21,288 bases of DNA from positions 1-21,288 of IMG/VR virus record IMGVR_UViG_3300040946_000233; one strand, given 5' to 3'. The DNA is from a virus. Position 1 is the stretch's first letter; every line of letters begins with the position of its first letter. Below, piece by piece: positions 5,203 through 13,490 of this stretch. Below the pieces are notes generated by a model. It was given only the letters and a program-made list of their open reading frames with translations, searched no databases and had not been told where the DNA came from. The position numbers and the translations under genes were made by a program.

Positions 5203-6465
5203 ATGGCAAACGTGATCCTTACGGATCAGGTCCTGACGTGGGCCGAACTCCGTATTCTCCGCAATTCGCTCAAAATCTGGGTGAATTGTTACGACGGCTA
5301 CCAGGATGAGTTCGGCAAGGCAGGTGCCAAGATCGGCTCAACCCTGATGGTCCGCAAACCCCAGCGATTTATCGCCGGGGATGGCCCTGGCTATGATCCG
5401 CAACCCCTGAGCGACACCGAGACGCCGCTGGTCTGCGACGTGTACAAGAAAGTGCACTTCGAGTTCAGCTCGACTGAGAAGACCCTCAGCTTGGACAAAT
5501 TCAGCGAACGGTACCTCATGAAAAGCGGTGTGGCCCTCGCCAACCAACTGGACTATCAAGCGGCGCAAGCGCTCGCGCTGAATAGCTTCCAGTATGTGGG
5601 AACGCCTGGCACCACGCCTACGACGAACACCACCTACACCAGCGCGAATGCTTTCCTGCGACGCATGGGCTTCCCGCCCGGTCCGCTGACCACGATGATC
5701 ATCAACTCGGACGCCTCGGTCCAGTTGATCGACCAATTGAAGACCCTCTTCAATCCACAGAAAGCCATCAGCCGGCAGAACGAAGAAGGCCTAATGGGGA
5801 CCGATTGGGGCGGCTCCGACTGGTACGAGGATGAAGGCCTCGCCATGCTGACGACCGGCGTTTATGCGACCGCCGGCACAGTCAACGGCGCGCAGTCTGC
5901 CGCTGGCGGAAACAACGGCACCATGACTCTGTTGACTCAGGCATGGACCTCGGGCGATGCGCTGAACGCTGGCGACAAGTTCACCATCGGCACTGCGGCA
6001 ACCGGAGTGCACGAAGTCAATCCGCAGACTCGGGTGAGCACCGGCAAGCTTCAGAAGTTCGTCGTGCTGCAATCCGTGACCGCCTCGGGCGGCGGCGCGA
6101 TGTCCATCATCTGCGCTCCCGCAATCACGCCTTCCGGCCAGTACCAGAACGTGGACGTTGCGGCCGCCACCGGCATGCAGATTACGCCGTGGCAGGATGA
6201 CGGATCGCTCGCCGCACCGGCTGCGATCAACACGCATCAGCTCCTGGGCTTCCATCGCGATGCGATGGCCGTCCTCACCGTGCCGCTCGATGTCGCGAAG
6301 TACCTCGATATGGGGTATGCCGACACCGACGAAGAGACCGGGATTCGCATGCGTATCACGCGGTCCTGGAACAACGTGTACGACGTCTGGCCGACGCGTA
6401 TCGACATCTTGGGCGGGTACAGCCCGCTCTACCGCGAGGCAGGCGTCTGCATCGCGAGTTCCTAA
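5203..6465 (+). CDS. Major coat protein, P22 gp5 type (420 aa)
   Basis: Length is close to P22 gp5 (430 residues). The start is supported by AGAGGA at good spacing. Residues 25-56 (IWVNCYDGYQDEFGKAGAKI, then GSTLMVRKPQRF) match the conserved N-terminal part of this family, where a tyrosine/aspartate stretch precedes a GxKIGxTxxxRKP strand. A Thr/Ser/Gly-rich middle (about residues 225-330) would correspond to the inserted I-domain and A-domain strands. Residues 380-415 (IRMRITRSWNNVYDVWPTRI) give the conserved C-terminal strand. It adopts the HK97 fold by family. It probably shares a transcript with the scaffold. Confidence 0.85.
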   Translation: MANVILTDQVLTWAELRILRNSLKIWVNCYDGYQDEFGKAGAKIGSTLMVRKPQRFIAGDGPGYDPQPLSDTETPLVCDVYKKVHFEFSSTEKTLSLDKFSERYLMKSGVALANQLDYQAAQALALNSFQYVGTPGTTPTTNTTYTSANAFLRRMGFPPGPLTTMIINSDASVQLIDQLKTLFNPQKAISRQNEEGLMGTDWGGSDWYEDEGLAMLTTGVYATAGTVNGAQSAAGGNNGTMTLLTQAWTSGDALNAGDKFTIGTAATGVHEVNPQTRVSTGKLQKFVVLQSVTASGGGAMSIICAPAITPSGQYQNVDVAAATGMQITPWQDDGSLAAPAAINTHQLLGFHRDAMAVLTVPLDVAKYLDMGYADTDEETGIRMRITRSWNNVYDVWPTRIDILGGYSPLYREAGVCIASS

Positions 6466-6492
6466 ACCTGAGAGGATCAAAGGAGAATCAAC

Positions 6493-7272
6493 ATGAAAAC
6501 CATTCTGAAAATCGCAACGCTTCTCGGGTTGTTCGCTGCGGCCGCCCTCGGCCAAGCCAACACGCTGTCGAGCACAACGCTCTCAGCGGCTCTTACCATC
6601 GCTCCAGGGGGCGCTCAGCAGCAGGTCTGCTTGACATCCACCACGAATGTCGTCGCTCCCACGAACTCGGCGGCAGGCTCATTGCTTTTCGTCGACCGCG
6701 AGGCCCTGCAGGTGGCGGGCCCAGTCGTCGGAAGTTGCGTGCCTGTCTTTCGAGGGGCCAGCGGCACGCCTACCCAGCCGCATACGACCGGTATCCTCGT
6801 CTGGATCGGCGACCCAACCTGGTACATCAACAAAGACTACGGTCAAGAGCAATGGGGCGCAAGCTGTACAGCTTCGGCGCTCTATGCCAGCCCGCTCATC
6901 AATCTGAAGACGGGGAATTGGGCGGTCTGCGATTCAACGTCGCGGATCACCTATGCGGGGCCATGGGGCGAAGGTGGCAATCTTCCCGCTTCGTTCACCA
7001 CCCATGGCGACAGTGCGTACTCAGCCTTGGCGACGGACACAGTCATCGTCTACACGACTCTGAGCACTACGAGGTTGGTGACACTTCCAGCGGCAACTTC
7101 TCTTCCCGGAAAAGTGTACATCATCAAGAATGGGACATCGAGCGCGCAATCCATCACTGTCGCAACGGTGGACACATCGGCAACCTTCGCATGCGAGACC
7201 ACCACAGCATGGGGCGCTTGCTCAATCATTTCGAATGGTACCGTCTGGTACAGCTTCACGGGGACCTACTAA
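6493..7272 (+). CDS. Secreted or virion surface protein with signal peptide (259 aa)
   Basis: The ATG has a strong AAAGGAG ribosome site. Residues 1-22 are a clear Sec signal peptide: MKTILK, a hydrophobic core LLGLFAAAA, then a likely cut after ALGQA. The mature part has six or more Cys residues (possible disulphides, consistent with export) and a C-terminal beta-rich region with VTLPAATSLPGKVYIIKN, a pattern frequent in phage fibre and decoration proteins. Lying between coat and adaptor suggests a head or head-fibre role, but a signal peptide is unexpected for a cytoplasmically assembled virion part. Alternatively, it is exported to change the host surface. Confidence 0.6.
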   Translation: MKTILKIATLLGLFAAAALGQANTLSSTTLSAALTIAPGGAQQQVCLTSTTNVVAPTNSAAGSLLFVDREALQVAGPVVGSCVPVFRGASGTPTQPHTTGILVWIGDPTWYINKDYGQEQWGASCTASALYASPLINLKTGNWAVCDSTSRITYAGPWGEGGNLPASFTTHGDSAYSALATDTVIVYTTLSTTRLVTLPAATSLPGKVYIIKNGTSSAQSITVATVDTSATFACETTTAWGACSIISNGTVWYSFTGTY

Positions 7273-9853: not shown

Positions 9854-10548
9854 GCGCGCTAACCGGCCAGCAGGCAGTCAACCAGGTCCTAACGCTCCTC
9901 GCGGTGCTTCAGCCAGGTGAGACGCCGAACACCTCGGAGTCAAACGATGCGCTGATCGTCATCAACAACGTCATCGATAATTGGGCCATCCAGCGCCTGC
10001 AGAATGTTGGGATGAGTCAAACATCCATCAGTTTGACAAATGCCACGCAAAGCTACACCCTGAGCCCAGTGCCGCCTGCAATTGTGGCATGTACGTTCAT
10101 CGATTCGAACGGTGCGACGTTCCCCCTTAAGCAACTCAATGCCGAAGAGTGGGATCAGATCGTTGACCGAAACATCACCGCGAACATCGTCAAGGGTTTC
10201 TTCTTCGACAGAATCTCTGCGCTGTGGCTCACCCCCGCTCCCAAATCTGGAACGGTCGTCTATTCATCCTGGCCTACAACGACAGCGCCATTTTCGTCAT
10301 TGGGCGGTAGTAATACGCTGGCGAACGGTTACCAGCGGGCGCTCATCGCGGCGGCGGCTCTGGAGTTGGCTCCGCAGTATGCGGTGCCTGCCGCGAATCT
10401 GGTGCAGATTCAGCAGAGCTATCAGGAAGCGATGTCGGCGCTCCGTCAACTGAATGCCGAGATCCTTGGGCCGGAGCCTGCGGGGATTCCGCCGAGTTCG
10501 AATGTCCAAGCGCCACCGACTTCGCCTTCTGGTGCTCCCGGCGCATAA
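9850..10548 (+). CDS. P22 gp4-like head-completion adaptor, copy 2 (232 aa)
   Basis: The start overlaps a 26-residue peptide (ATGA). The N terminus follows the gp4-family pattern very well: helices with AVNQVLTLLAVLQPGETP, then ALIVINNVIDNWAIQRLQNV, a strand ISLTNATQSYTLSP, and later YQRALIAAAALELAPQY. It parallels copy 1 at 7280 (DSWNIMR versus DNWAIQR; MTYPIG versus QSYTLS) but the two are strongly diverged, so this is not a recent duplication. The C terminus is Pro/Ser-rich. It precedes the gp10-like gene, the same order as gp4-gp10 in P22, so this copy may be the positional equivalent. Confidence 0.75.
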   Translation: MSALTGQQAVNQVLTLLAVLQPGETPNTSESNDALIVINNVIDNWAIQRLQNVGMSQTSISLTNATQSYTLSPVPPAIVACTFIDSNGATFPLKQLNAEEWDQIVDRNITANIVKGFFFDRISALWLTPAPKSGTVVYSSWPTTTAPFSSLGGSNTLANGYQRALIAAAALELAPQYAVPAANLVQIQQSYQEAMSALRQLNAEILGPEPAGIPPSSNVQAPPTSPSGAPGA

Positions 10549-10708
10549 TCGCGCCATCGAGCGCGACGCAGAACAGGAAATCCTCCACGCTGCTGCCCTT
10601 AAACATCCCTTGCAAAAGCGCCCAAAAGCGCCTTGCTTGGAAGATTAAGTTTTCCTCGATGGGTGTGAAGTCTTCGGCGGCTTCCTCGACGATTGGCATG
10701 CCGAGCAT
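10343..10708 (-). CDS. Candidate antisense gene overlapping the end of adaptor copy 2 (121 aa)
   Basis: This frame fills the 200 bases between 10549 and 10749, which have no + strand gene. Its first 60 residues (for example EENLIFQARRFWALLQGMF and GSSVEDFLFCVALDGAIMRR) look like real helices with hydrophobic spacing. The last 60, antisense to the adaptor gene, are Pro/Ser/Ala-rich and look like an overprint. No clear ribosome site precedes the ATG. A palindrome (10735-10744) between it and the gp10-like gene could serve divergent promoters. The arrangement copies that of the 127-residue minus gene over the next gene's end. It may be a moron or a spurious frame. Confidence 0.35.
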   Translation of the reverse strand: MLGMPIVEEAAEDFTPIEENLIFQARRFWALLQGMFKGSSVEDFLFCVALDGAIMRREHQKAKSVALGHSNSAESPQAPAQGSRHSVDGAPTSLPDSSAESAPDSRQAPHTAEPTPEPPPR

Positions 10709-10734
10709 CTTAGCATCGAAATCCGAGCGCGGGA

Positions 10735-10744
10735 ATAGTACTAT
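10735..10744. promoter_or_regulatory. Palindrome ATAGTACTAT with TACTAT box before gp10-like gene
   Basis: This exact ten-base palindrome lies between two divergent starts (10708 on minus, 10750 on plus). The + strand TACTAT (10739-10744) ends five bases before ATG, giving a leaderless-type -10. The same hexamer reads on the minus strand 26 bases before the antisense start. No Shine-Dalgarno sequence precedes either gene. Confidence 0.4.
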
Positions 10745-10749
10745 CGGAC

Positions 10750-12282
10750 ATGCCTTCGTTCGGATTCATCGGTCCAGCCTACCAGGGGCGCTCGCCCGTC
10801 ATCGCCTGCGAGCAGCTCTTTAACCTATTCCCCGAGCTTCAGGAGTCGTCCAACTCCGCCAGCAAGGGGACGAAATACAACTACTACGGTACGCCCGGTA
10901 CGTCCGTTTTCTGCGCGACGGGGGCCAGCAGCATCAGGGCGCTCTGGGGCGGGAATAACGCGCTGTACGCCGTCGCAGACGGAAACCTGATCCAGATCAA
11001 CTCATCGGGCTCGGTAATCGCTACGGGGGCTATCGGCACGGCCTCGGGGCCCGCACAGATCGTCGGTGGACCTTCCGGGGTGTCTGCCGCCCTGCTGGTT
11101 TGGGACGGCTCGAGCGGCGCGTCAGGGCCAAATACTTGGTGGGTGGCGGGGCTGGGAGTCACCGCACCCGTGCCGGTCATCTCTTCGCTCGGAATCACTT
11201 ACTGTAATGGCTACTTCATCGCCTTGCGGCCGGGCGGCGCGGACTTCGCCGGTGACCCGATTCCGATCAATACCGCCGATCAGACGCAGTTCAACGTCTC
11301 GGCGATCCTGGATGGCTCAACCTGGAATCCGCTCAACTACGCCATCAAGACGGGTGCTCCCGATGCGCTTCAGATGATCTTCGGGCCAGCGACGCCTGGC
11401 GGAGGTCCCGAAGAATTGTGGCTGCTGGGGAAGAAGACCATCGAGGTGTGGTACGCCGTACCGGGCACAGCGCTGAATCCATTCCCGTTTCAACAGGTCC
11501 AGGGTGCCTTCATCAATCAGGGCCTCTGGGCGAAGATGAGCGTGGCCGGACTTGCGGACGGAATCTACTACCTCGCAGGCGATGATCGCGGCGTCGGGAT
11601 GGTCGTCAGGATGAACGGCTACATTCCGCAGCGGGTCTCGACGCATGCGATCGAGTATCTCATCCAGAGTTGGATTGCGGCGGGCTCCGACGTTTCAACG
11701 GCCACCGGCTACGGTTACCAAGAGCAGGGCCACAACTTCTACGTGCTCACGTTCCCCGGAAACGGGACCATCGTTTACGATGCGACGGAGAATCTCTGGC
11801 ACCAGCGGGCGACGATCACAGGCAGCGCGGGAAGCCTGAGCTACGCCCAGGCCAAGGGCCAGCAGTTCCACGCGGCGACATTCGGGCTGCACCTGGTCGC
11901 CGATCTCAACAGCGGCAATATCTATTCGCAGTCGCTCTCAACGTACCAGGATGACGGCTCGCCGCTGTGGCGGGTGCGTGCATCGCCGCACTTGGACATG
12001 GAGCAGCTCTGGACATATTACGATCAGCTCCAACTCGACTTCGGGCCTTACCCGCCAGCGAGTACGGCCACTTTCTATCTGGAGATTTCCGACGACGGCG
12101 GCCAAACGTTCAATCCGCCAATCACGGTTGTCGTAGGATCCGGAGGCACGTCGCCATCTCGCGCTGTATGGCGGAGACTTGGTCGATCAAGAAATCGAGT
12201 CTTTCGAGTATCAACATCCAACGCCGTGGCTCAGGCGTGGGTGGATGCGTATCTACGGATGCGGGCGGGGACGGGGCTTTGA
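10750..12282 (+). CDS. P22 gp10-like packaged-DNA stabilisation / tail hub protein (510 aa)
   Basis: In P22, gp10 attaches below gp4 and helps hold DNA in the head. Length is close to gp10 (472 residues). The N terminus has GFIGPAYQGRSPVIACEQLF, then NLFPE and YYGTPGTSVFC, as in this family. The middle has the beta-propeller-like pattern with NPLNYAIKTGAPDALQMIF, then EELWLLGKKTIEVWYAVPG and FPFQQVQGAFINQGL, matching the family motif where an LWLxGxxTxEVWY strand precedes FPFxxxxGA. The C terminus has the typical DDGSPLWRVRASPHLDM. Residues 202-216 are encoded by a 46-bp sequence repeated exactly, inverted, at 12351-12396. The last 161 bases are overlapped by an antisense gene. Confidence 0.82.
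   Translation: MPSFGFIGPAYQGRSPVIACEQLFNLFPELQESSNSASKGTKYNYYGTPGTSVFCATGASSIRALWGGNNALYAVADGNLIQINSSGSVIATGAIGTASGPAQIVGGPSGVSAALLVWDGSSGASGPNTWWVAGLGVTAPVPVISSLGITYCNGYFIALRPGGADFAGDPIPINTADQTQFNVSAILDGSTWNPLNYAIKTGAPDALQMIFGPATPGGGPEELWLLGKKTIEVWYAVPGTALNPFPFQQVQGAFINQGLWAKMSVAGLADGIYYLAGDDRGVGMVVRMNGYIPQRVSTHAIEYLIQSWIAAGSDVSTATGYGYQEQGHNFYVLTFPGNGTIVYDATENLWHQRATITGSAGSLSYAQAKGQQFHAATFGLHLVADLNSGNIYSQSLSTYQDDGSPLWRVRASPHLDMEQLWTYYDQLQLDFGPYPPASTATFYLEISDDGGQTFNPPITVVVGSGGTSPSRAVWRRLGRSRNRVFRVSTSNAVAQAWVDAYLRMRAGTGL
11351..11396 (+). repeat. 46-bp inverted repeat, left arm (inside gp10-like gene)
   Basis: These bases are the exact reverse complement of 12351-12396, and identity stops abruptly at both ends. 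Here it encodes GAPDALQMIFGPATP at residues 202-216 of the gp10-like protein. The arms flank 954 bases. Confidence 0.95.
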
Positions 12283-12505
12283 AGGATCGTTCGTAAAACG
12301 CCTTCTCGGATTCAGTCATGGGGCGCGGCGGTTCTGGTGGGAACGGAACCGGCGTCGCTGGCCCGAAGATCATCTGAAGCGCATCGGGAGCACCCGGTGA
12401 AGGATCTGGCGGGTCCCAAGCCTCCCTACCGTGGACTTCAATGCCGAACTTCAGCAGCGTCGCAAGTTCCTTATCGCTGCATTCGGAGCGCATGATAACC
12501 TTCAC
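12122..12505 (-). CDS. Minus-strand hypothetical protein (127 aa), partner of DUF3467 gene
   Basis: GTG start within a GTGA overlap with the stop of the DUF3467 gene, and GAGGGGG just upstream, show coupled translation and support this gene. It has an N-terminal helical part (SDKELATLLKFGIEVHG), a Pro-rich middle containing GAPDALQMIFGPATP (38-52), then MTESEKAFYERSF and a C-terminal amphipathic helix (LERLDFLIDQVSAIQREMAT) that could be a coiled coil. The middle peptide comes from the right arm of a 46-bp inverted repeat and is identical to part of the gp10-like protein. The last 161 bases are antisense to the gp10-like gene. No family is recognised. Confidence 0.6.
   Translation of the reverse strand: MKVIMRSECSDKELATLLKFGIEVHGREAWDPPDPSPGAPDALQMIFGPATPVPFPPEPPRPMTESEKAFYERSFKAPSPPASVDTHPPTPEPRRWMLILERLDFLIDQVSAIQREMATCLRILRQP
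12351..12396 (-). repeat. 46-bp inverted repeat, right arm (inside 127-aa minus gene)
   Basis: Exact reverse complement of 11351-11396. Read on the minus strand it encodes GAPDALQMIFGPATP in the same frame as in the gp10-like gene. Flanking bases differ at once on both sides. Confidence 0.95.
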
Positions 12506-12852
12506 ATCTTCCCCCTCGGCAGCGGTCCTGCCGGTTGCACGATGCTCTGTTGGCCGATGCTGATCGGCCCGAACTGGCGCTCATAAGCCTGTACGTTGTT
12601 CGCGAGCACGCCAAGTAAGAGCTTCGCCTGCTGGGGGCTCAGGAACATCGCCGTATGCTGGATGACGGCGGGACGCGGATCATCGTTCGGCGATTCCCCC
12701 ATCGTGCCGAACATCAGGCAGAGATCGGAGAGTGTCACGGAGATACCGACGCTGTTTGCGTAGCGCCGCTCGAATTCCGGTGCGCGCAACATTTGGAATT
12801 GCTGGCCTTGCGGCACTTCTGCCTCGCGGCTGTTTTGGGTTGGATCAGACAT
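12502..12852 (-). CDS. DUF3467-family protein (116 aa)
   Basis: The minus-strand product carries the DUF3467 hallmark FLSPQQAKLLLGVLANNVQAY, then ERQFGPI, after a strand with ANSVGISVTLSDLCLMFG. In the family, the AK..L...L..N...YE..FG signature follows a beta strand set. The molecular function of DUF3467 is unknown. ATG at 12852 was chosen because a TATTAT box ends seven bases upstream, and the longer start at 12912 would cross that box and reach the divergent gene. It is the first gene of a two-gene minus-strand unit inside a + strand structural cluster, the usual layout of a moron. Confidence 0.75.
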   Translation of the reverse strand: MSDPTQNSREAEVPQGQQFQMLRAPEFERRYANSVGISVTLSDLCLMFGTMGESPNDDPRPAVIQHTAMFLSPQQAKLLLGVLANNVQAYERQFGPISIGQQSIVQPAGPLPRGKM

Positions 12853-12859
12853 GGAAGCG

Positions 12860-12865
12860 ATAATA
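12860..12865 (-). promoter_or_regulatory. TATTAT box for the minus-strand DUF3467 unit
   Basis: On the minus strand TATTAT is seven bases before ATG (12852), with TTGGTT 18 bases further upstream as a possible -35. There is no ribosome site, so the message would be leaderless or nearly so. Confidence 0.45.
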
Positions 12866-12902
12866 CACCACAAACCTTTCCCAAACCAATGGTACTTTGG
12901 TT

Positions 12903-12908
12903 TATAAT
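12903..12908 (+). promoter_or_regulatory. TATAAT box for the first tail gene
   Basis: A perfect TATAAT ends six bases before ATG at 12915, without Shine-Dalgarno sequence. No good -35 is seen. It stands back to back with the minus-strand TATTAT, 37 bases away. Confidence 0.5.
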
Positions 12909-12914
12909 CCACCC

Positions 12915-13490
12915 ATGGATCAAACCGCCGTTGCTGGTGTTTCCTTTGGGGCGCAAGCTCGCGGCGGCATGCCGCTGGGCGTCCGCGTGGCTAACTTCTA
13001 CGAGGTGTGCTGTTACGCGCACAAGGGCGGCCCGCTGCTGTGGCGGGAGCACATCAAGAACCTGACGGTTACCCAGGGTCTCAATGACATCCTGACGAAG
13101 TATTTCACCGGCTCCAGCTACACGGCGGCCTGGTACGTCGGCCTTATCAACAATGCGAGTTTCACAGCACTCGCGGCCGGCGACACTTCCCAGCAGATCA
13201 ACGGCTCGAATGGGTGGATCGAGGACACCGCTTACTCGGCGGGCGTCCGGCAGACGCTAACCCTCGGCTCGGCTTCGGCTGGCTCTATCTCCAACACCGC
13301 AAGTCCAGCGAGCTTCACCATGAATGCGAGCGGCACACTCAACGGAGCATTCATTGCCACGACATCGACGCAGGGTGCCGGCGCCGGCGGGACGGTGCTT
13401 TACGGCGAAGCCTCCTTCTCTTCGACGCAGGCGTACGCCAGCGGCAACGTGATTACCGTGACCGTGACGCTGACGATGGTAAGCACGTAG
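12915..13490 (+). CDS. Phage virion protein of the YFTGSSYTAAWYVGL type (191 aa)
   Basis: ATG at 12915 is used, since a TTG at 12897 would lie upstream of the TATAAT box. The sequence follows a pattern shared by many tailed-phage structural proteins: KNLTVTQGLNDILTKYF, TGSSYTAAWYVGLIN, a Trp-containing IEDTAYSAGVRQTLTLGSA, then SFTMNASGTLNGAFIATT and a final VITVTVTLTMV strand. It is beta-rich, probably part of the tail or head surface. The exact role in the particle is unknown to me. The next gene starts four bases after the stop and is another common virion protein. Confidence 0.65.
   Translation: MDQTAVAGVSFGAQARGGMPLGVRVANFYEVCCYAHKGGPLLWREHIKNLTVTQGLNDILTKYFTGSSYTAAWYVGLINNASFTALAAGDTSQQINGSNGWIEDTAYSAGVRQTLTLGSASAGSISNTASPASFTMNASGTLNGAFIATTSTQGAGAGGTVLYGEASFSSTQAYASGNVITVTVTLTMVST

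Follow-up and report, generated by a model that had tools for sequence, protein, structure and literature searches.

Phages carry invertible tail-fibre modules, which are served by serine invertases of the Gin/Cin/Pin/Hin type. Another known arrangement is the diversity-generating retroelement, in which a short repeat occurs both in a structural gene of a phage and at a locus close by. PinQ is one example of a phage invertase module (PMC12529663). In great apes, local reverse-complement templated insertions arise via template switching, with a median fragment of 12 nt and a maximum of 128 (PMC7954356), and in yeast template switching between inverted repeats alters coding sequence (PMC8604942). 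Inversions make up about 85% of MDA chimeras, whose junctions usually show 2-21 nt of complementarity; among inverted chimeras that join sites less than 10 kb from each other, frequency falls as the distance grows (Lasken and Stockwell, PMC1855051).

We analysed a stretch of viral DNA (the window: all 21,288 nt, positions 1 to 21,288, of IMG/VR record IMGVR_UViG_3300040946_000233) in which, as in invertase tail-fibre modules, inverted arms lie inside two opposing coding regions. As in diversity-generating retroelements, a structural gene and a nearby locus share a short repeat. The locus resembles MDA chimeras in its inverted orientation, nearby source and short junction complementarity. With template-switch insertions (the four-point model of PMC7954356; PMC8604942) it shares a nearby reverse-complement copy, sharp edges, a net gain of sequence and an effect on coding. 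Which of these does it represent? The repeat is most likely a curiosity of mutation and not an invertible module; it is real in the sequence, and it is unusual.

Results

An exact inverted repeat in two opposing coding regions

The earlier note on this DNA had reported an exact 46-bp inverted repeat with sharp ends, placed in the same frame in two opposing genes. We could reproduce each of these observations. The arms are reverse complements at 46/46 positions and are spaced 954 nt apart (Table 1). Matching breaks off directly at both sides, where the edges read ...catcaagaCGGG and ...ccttcacCGGG at one end and ...ACGCCtggcgg and ...ACGCCggttcc at the other. The left arm lies within a 510-aa gp10-like ORF and the right arm within a 127-aa minus-strand ORF, and both encode the identical peptide GAPDALQMIFGPATP in the same frame.

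This pair is the sole exact inverted repeat of at least 20 bp in the window. The window was also simulated 60 times with a first-order Markov model, and the longest exact inverted match of each run measured 13-20 bp; the 46-bp repeat is far above chance level. For a base rate we examined nine relatives (L003-L006 and L009-L013), which include contigs and phage genomes. None of the nine held an inverted repeat longer than 25 bp, and exact inverted repeats of at least 20 bp occurred only in L005, where they measure 21-25 bp and belong to a family of dispersed repeats. The event is rare within this nine-member set, yet it is of a known type.

Table 1. Features of the locus, with window coordinates
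Feature	Position	Strand	Basis
gp10-like gene (P22 packaged-DNA stabilisation / head closure Hc3), probable source of the copied segment	10750..12282	+	phrog_578
Left arm, ancestral copy, gp10 codons 202-216	11351..11396	+	gapless alignment to L003
127-aa orphan ORF that appears to have taken up the copy	12122..12505	-	no homologue, no family match
About 219 nt from gp10 stop to DUF3467 stop	12283..12501	no strand	absent from L003
Right arm, probable derived copy: putative 45-bp inverted templated insertion plus 1 ambiguous base	12351..12396	-	flanks/junctions
DUF3467 gene (PF11950), upstream partner of the orphan ORF	12502..12912	-	conserved in L003

The gp10-like copy is the ancestral one

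The gp10-like gene is set in a podovirus block beside P22-type portal and coat genes, and its residues 4-507 match the head closure Hc3 family phrog_578 (E 4.8e-65). By tblastn it has matches in 38 phage records, and in 36 of them no less than 80% of the query lies together at one site. An alignment-based scan for further gp10 relatives added 0 new ones from viral contigs and 0 from genomes. The closest relative found is IMGVR_UViG_3300002301_000064 (L003), whose gp10 has 75% amino acid identity to that of the window. The L003 gp10 alignment is gap-free across the left arm, with 14/46 bases mismatched.

On the other side of the gp10 stop the two contigs differ. L003 has its gp10 stop and its DUF3467 stop about 16 nt apart, versus about 219 nt in the window, and is without the entire orphan gene. 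Its DUF3467 gene is on the minus strand, with 32% identity to that of the window. Because the L003 gp10 is gap-free and its stops are spaced by 16 nt, the left arm is old and the right arm lies in DNA absent from L003. By these comparisons the arms are unequal partners: the gp10-like copy is ancestral, and the right arm is probably the derived one. The whole 219-nt region was also considered as a possible patchwork of window sequence; this origin was rejected, since besides the arm a single 12-mer is all that matches the rest of the window.

The right arm is identical to the window's own gp10 at 46/46 bases and to that of L003 at 32/46. Since it matches its own gp10 and not that of L003, the copying was probably local, in this lineage, after the split from L003. 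The earlier note had taken perfect identity to mean a recent event. Set against the L003 split this is fair, though the date is loosely bounded: 0/46 differences puts an upper limit of about 6.3% (95%) on pairwise divergence, so that up to about 6% divergence is compatible. It had also read the identity as copying, gene conversion or ongoing recombination; a one-off copying event is enough, and conversion and recombination are unneeded.

The right arm as a probable insertion of 15 codons

In minus-strand sense the right arm and its context read ...CCTTCAC[CGGGTGC...GACGC]CGGTTCCG... The net insert is 45 bp (15 codons), and the 46th base is a common C that fits either end equally well. Once one 45-bp unit is taken out, the remaining CCTTCACCGGTTCCG encodes PSPVP without a change of frame. 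The frame without the unit is open and forms a continuous proline-rich linker, DPPDPSPVPFPPEPPRP (DPPDPSP/VPFPPEPPRP, the slash marking the join). As removal of the 45 bp leaves an open, continuous linker, the most plausible reading of the right arm is an inverted templated insertion of 15 codons. The empty site is reconstructed from the two flanks, and no relative carrying the orphan gene minus the insert was found. A scan of viral contigs with a degenerate empty-site pattern found nothing, and a search of IMG/VR viral contigs with an exact 35-bp arm pattern gave neither a match nor a near-identical contig.

Source and target agree over 3 nt at the entry junction and over 1 nt at the exit junction, a level of microhomology with P = 0.019 under random placement, which weakly backs a template switch or templated repair. 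The earlier note had pointed out the in-frame placement. Of all gp10 45-mers, 1,294 would stay open at this site in this orientation (411, 495 and 388 by phase, each out of 495), and 495 of these 1,294 open insertions would share the frame of gp10, about 38% by chance. We therefore regard the shared frame as unremarkable.

A one-way templated insertion as the preferred reading

We conclude, with a probability of about 0.7, that the right arm is a one-time inverted templated insertion, a single one-way event without a switching function. This was the simpler alternative in the earlier note, and it is backed by the ancestral gp10 copy and the clean open empty site. The right arm is a sharp-ended reverse complement of a nearby source (46/46), and that source is ancestral and unchanged by the gapless alignment to L003.

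While the phage genome was being replicated or repaired, a growing 3' end located at the orphan minus gene would have switched to the opposite strand of gp10, about 1 kb off, copied 45 nt (15 codons) and then gone back to its original template. Templated end repair or end-joining could have produced the same insert. By either route the proline-rich linker of the orphan protein would have received the gp10 peptide in frame. What is inferred is the route (template switch or end-joining), the entry of the 45 bp into an older linker and the translation of the orphan ORF. Unlike great-ape insertions, this one measures 45 nt against a median of 12 nt and comes from about 1 kb off; it also differs from the cited template-switch cases in lying in a phage genome and in having an ancestral form that is deduced, not directly observed. 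Against templated insertion, the 954-nt separation is long in comparison with the short-range switches of PMC7954356 and PMC8604942, and the trace of an artefact would look similar.

Coding status of the orphan ORF

The start of the orphan ORF overlaps the stop of the DUF3467 gene (ATGTGA), with AGGGGG upstream. Searches of viral contigs, genome contigs, phages and five related records returned no homologue, and the family libraries searched gave no family match. In its unique part, minus the insert, G+C by codon position is 0.64/0.47/0.62; GC3 of the measured plus-strand genes is 0.67-0.78. The ORF and the DUF3467 gene may form a two-gene minus operon in which the ORF is translated second, its coding status being suggested by these features. 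Its final 53 codons (12122-12282) are antisense to the 3' end of gp10.

Discussion

Could recombination between the arms flip the 954 bp between them, so that gp10 and the minus protein switch between two fusion forms? The arms are long, exact and inverted, and both flip products are open in frame, with the composition that the earlier note had given them: 216+75 and 52+294 residues, or 291 and 346 aa. The flip would, however, split gp10 after residue 216 and fuse each part to unrelated sequence. In relatives gp10 is uninterrupted and unflipped. The parts that would be swapped are not homologous alternatives, as the orphan ORF and gp10 share the arm only. This is unlike invertase modules, and the geometry of invertible phage tail genes that had been proposed for the locus is not supported: the segments are not versions of one domain, the flip breaks gp10, and the recombinase families are absent from the window. 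The window, a fragment of a genome, has no resolvase, integrase or reverse-transcriptase family match. The earlier statement that no recombinase gene is visible in it stands for the serine (PF00239) and tyrosine (PF00589) families, and a recombinase could lie elsewhere in the genome. Judged by eye only, the arms have no recombinase-site features. We rejected an invertible module on the flip products, the recombinase missing from the window and the uninterrupted gp10 of relatives, and give it next to no credence. A diversity-generating retroelement was likewise rejected. Reverse transcriptase (PF00078) is absent from the window, a fragment, and there is no adenine pattern, the arms being identical at 46/46 positions. 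Unlike in such elements, the repeat here is away from the 3' end of the target gene and has no adenine-specific differences. That the arms are an active pair recombining at low frequency, or that the copied peptide is kept by selection, the orphan protein thereby bearing a piece of the neck protein and modulating gp10 assembly, seems to us highly improbable.

Perhaps the peptide has a selected function, as a gp10 mimic (for example, a competitor in neck assembly), or the RNA arms pair with and regulate the gp10 message? The same frame yields an identical peptide, a plus-strand late transcript across both arms could form a 46-bp duplex, and the orphan ORF starts in an operon-like overlap. Against this, no homologues were found that could show conservation, and the same frame is expected at the rate given above for open insertions. 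No promoter-like site turned up in 10500-13100, and terminator-like sites are no more frequent than chance would give. We consider such a function highly improbable. The last alternative is that an amplification chimera (e.g. MDA) or an assembly misjoin put a gp10 fragment into the contig. The sequence is an IMG/VR virus record, and the geometry fits MDA chimeras. An amplification chimera normally has one junction, however, whereas an island with two foreign flanks needs two switches fixed in the consensus, and here the sequence returns to a coherent open site. The insert length of 45, a multiple of 3, and the intact frame are mildly contrary as well, with a 1 in 3 expectation by chance. An artefact is thus unlikely, though it deserves more weight than any reading that gives the repeat a role.

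If the one-way templated insertion is natural, it is a clean phage case of a small gene growing by 15 codons at a single stroke, through a reverse-complement copying error whose source was an opposing structural gene about 1 kb off. The locus also carries a caution: an exact inverted repeat across two genes should be taken for an invertible switch only when a recombinase, homologous alternatives and flipped reads are there as well.

Some observations on the surroundings can be added. In the late block of both the window (12502-12912, minus) and L003 (7538-7936, minus), gp10 is closely followed by a DUF3467 (PF11950) gene in opposite orientation; among annotated phages DUF3467 gave a single weak match, in a Marinitoga virus. 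L005 carries dispersed repeats of the GATCACC/GGTGATC type in inverted orientation at 2368-2552, 6462-6525 and 7091-7119, and L003 has a minus-strand ORF (10311-10811) built from short tandem repeats that are VTLGNNVTLGDGV-like. A second small minus ORF is found just upstream of gp10 in the window (10343-10708) and in L003 (5792-6028). The two have a common short motif (12/24 identical, E 2e-4), and the pair may represent a conserved opposing small gene.
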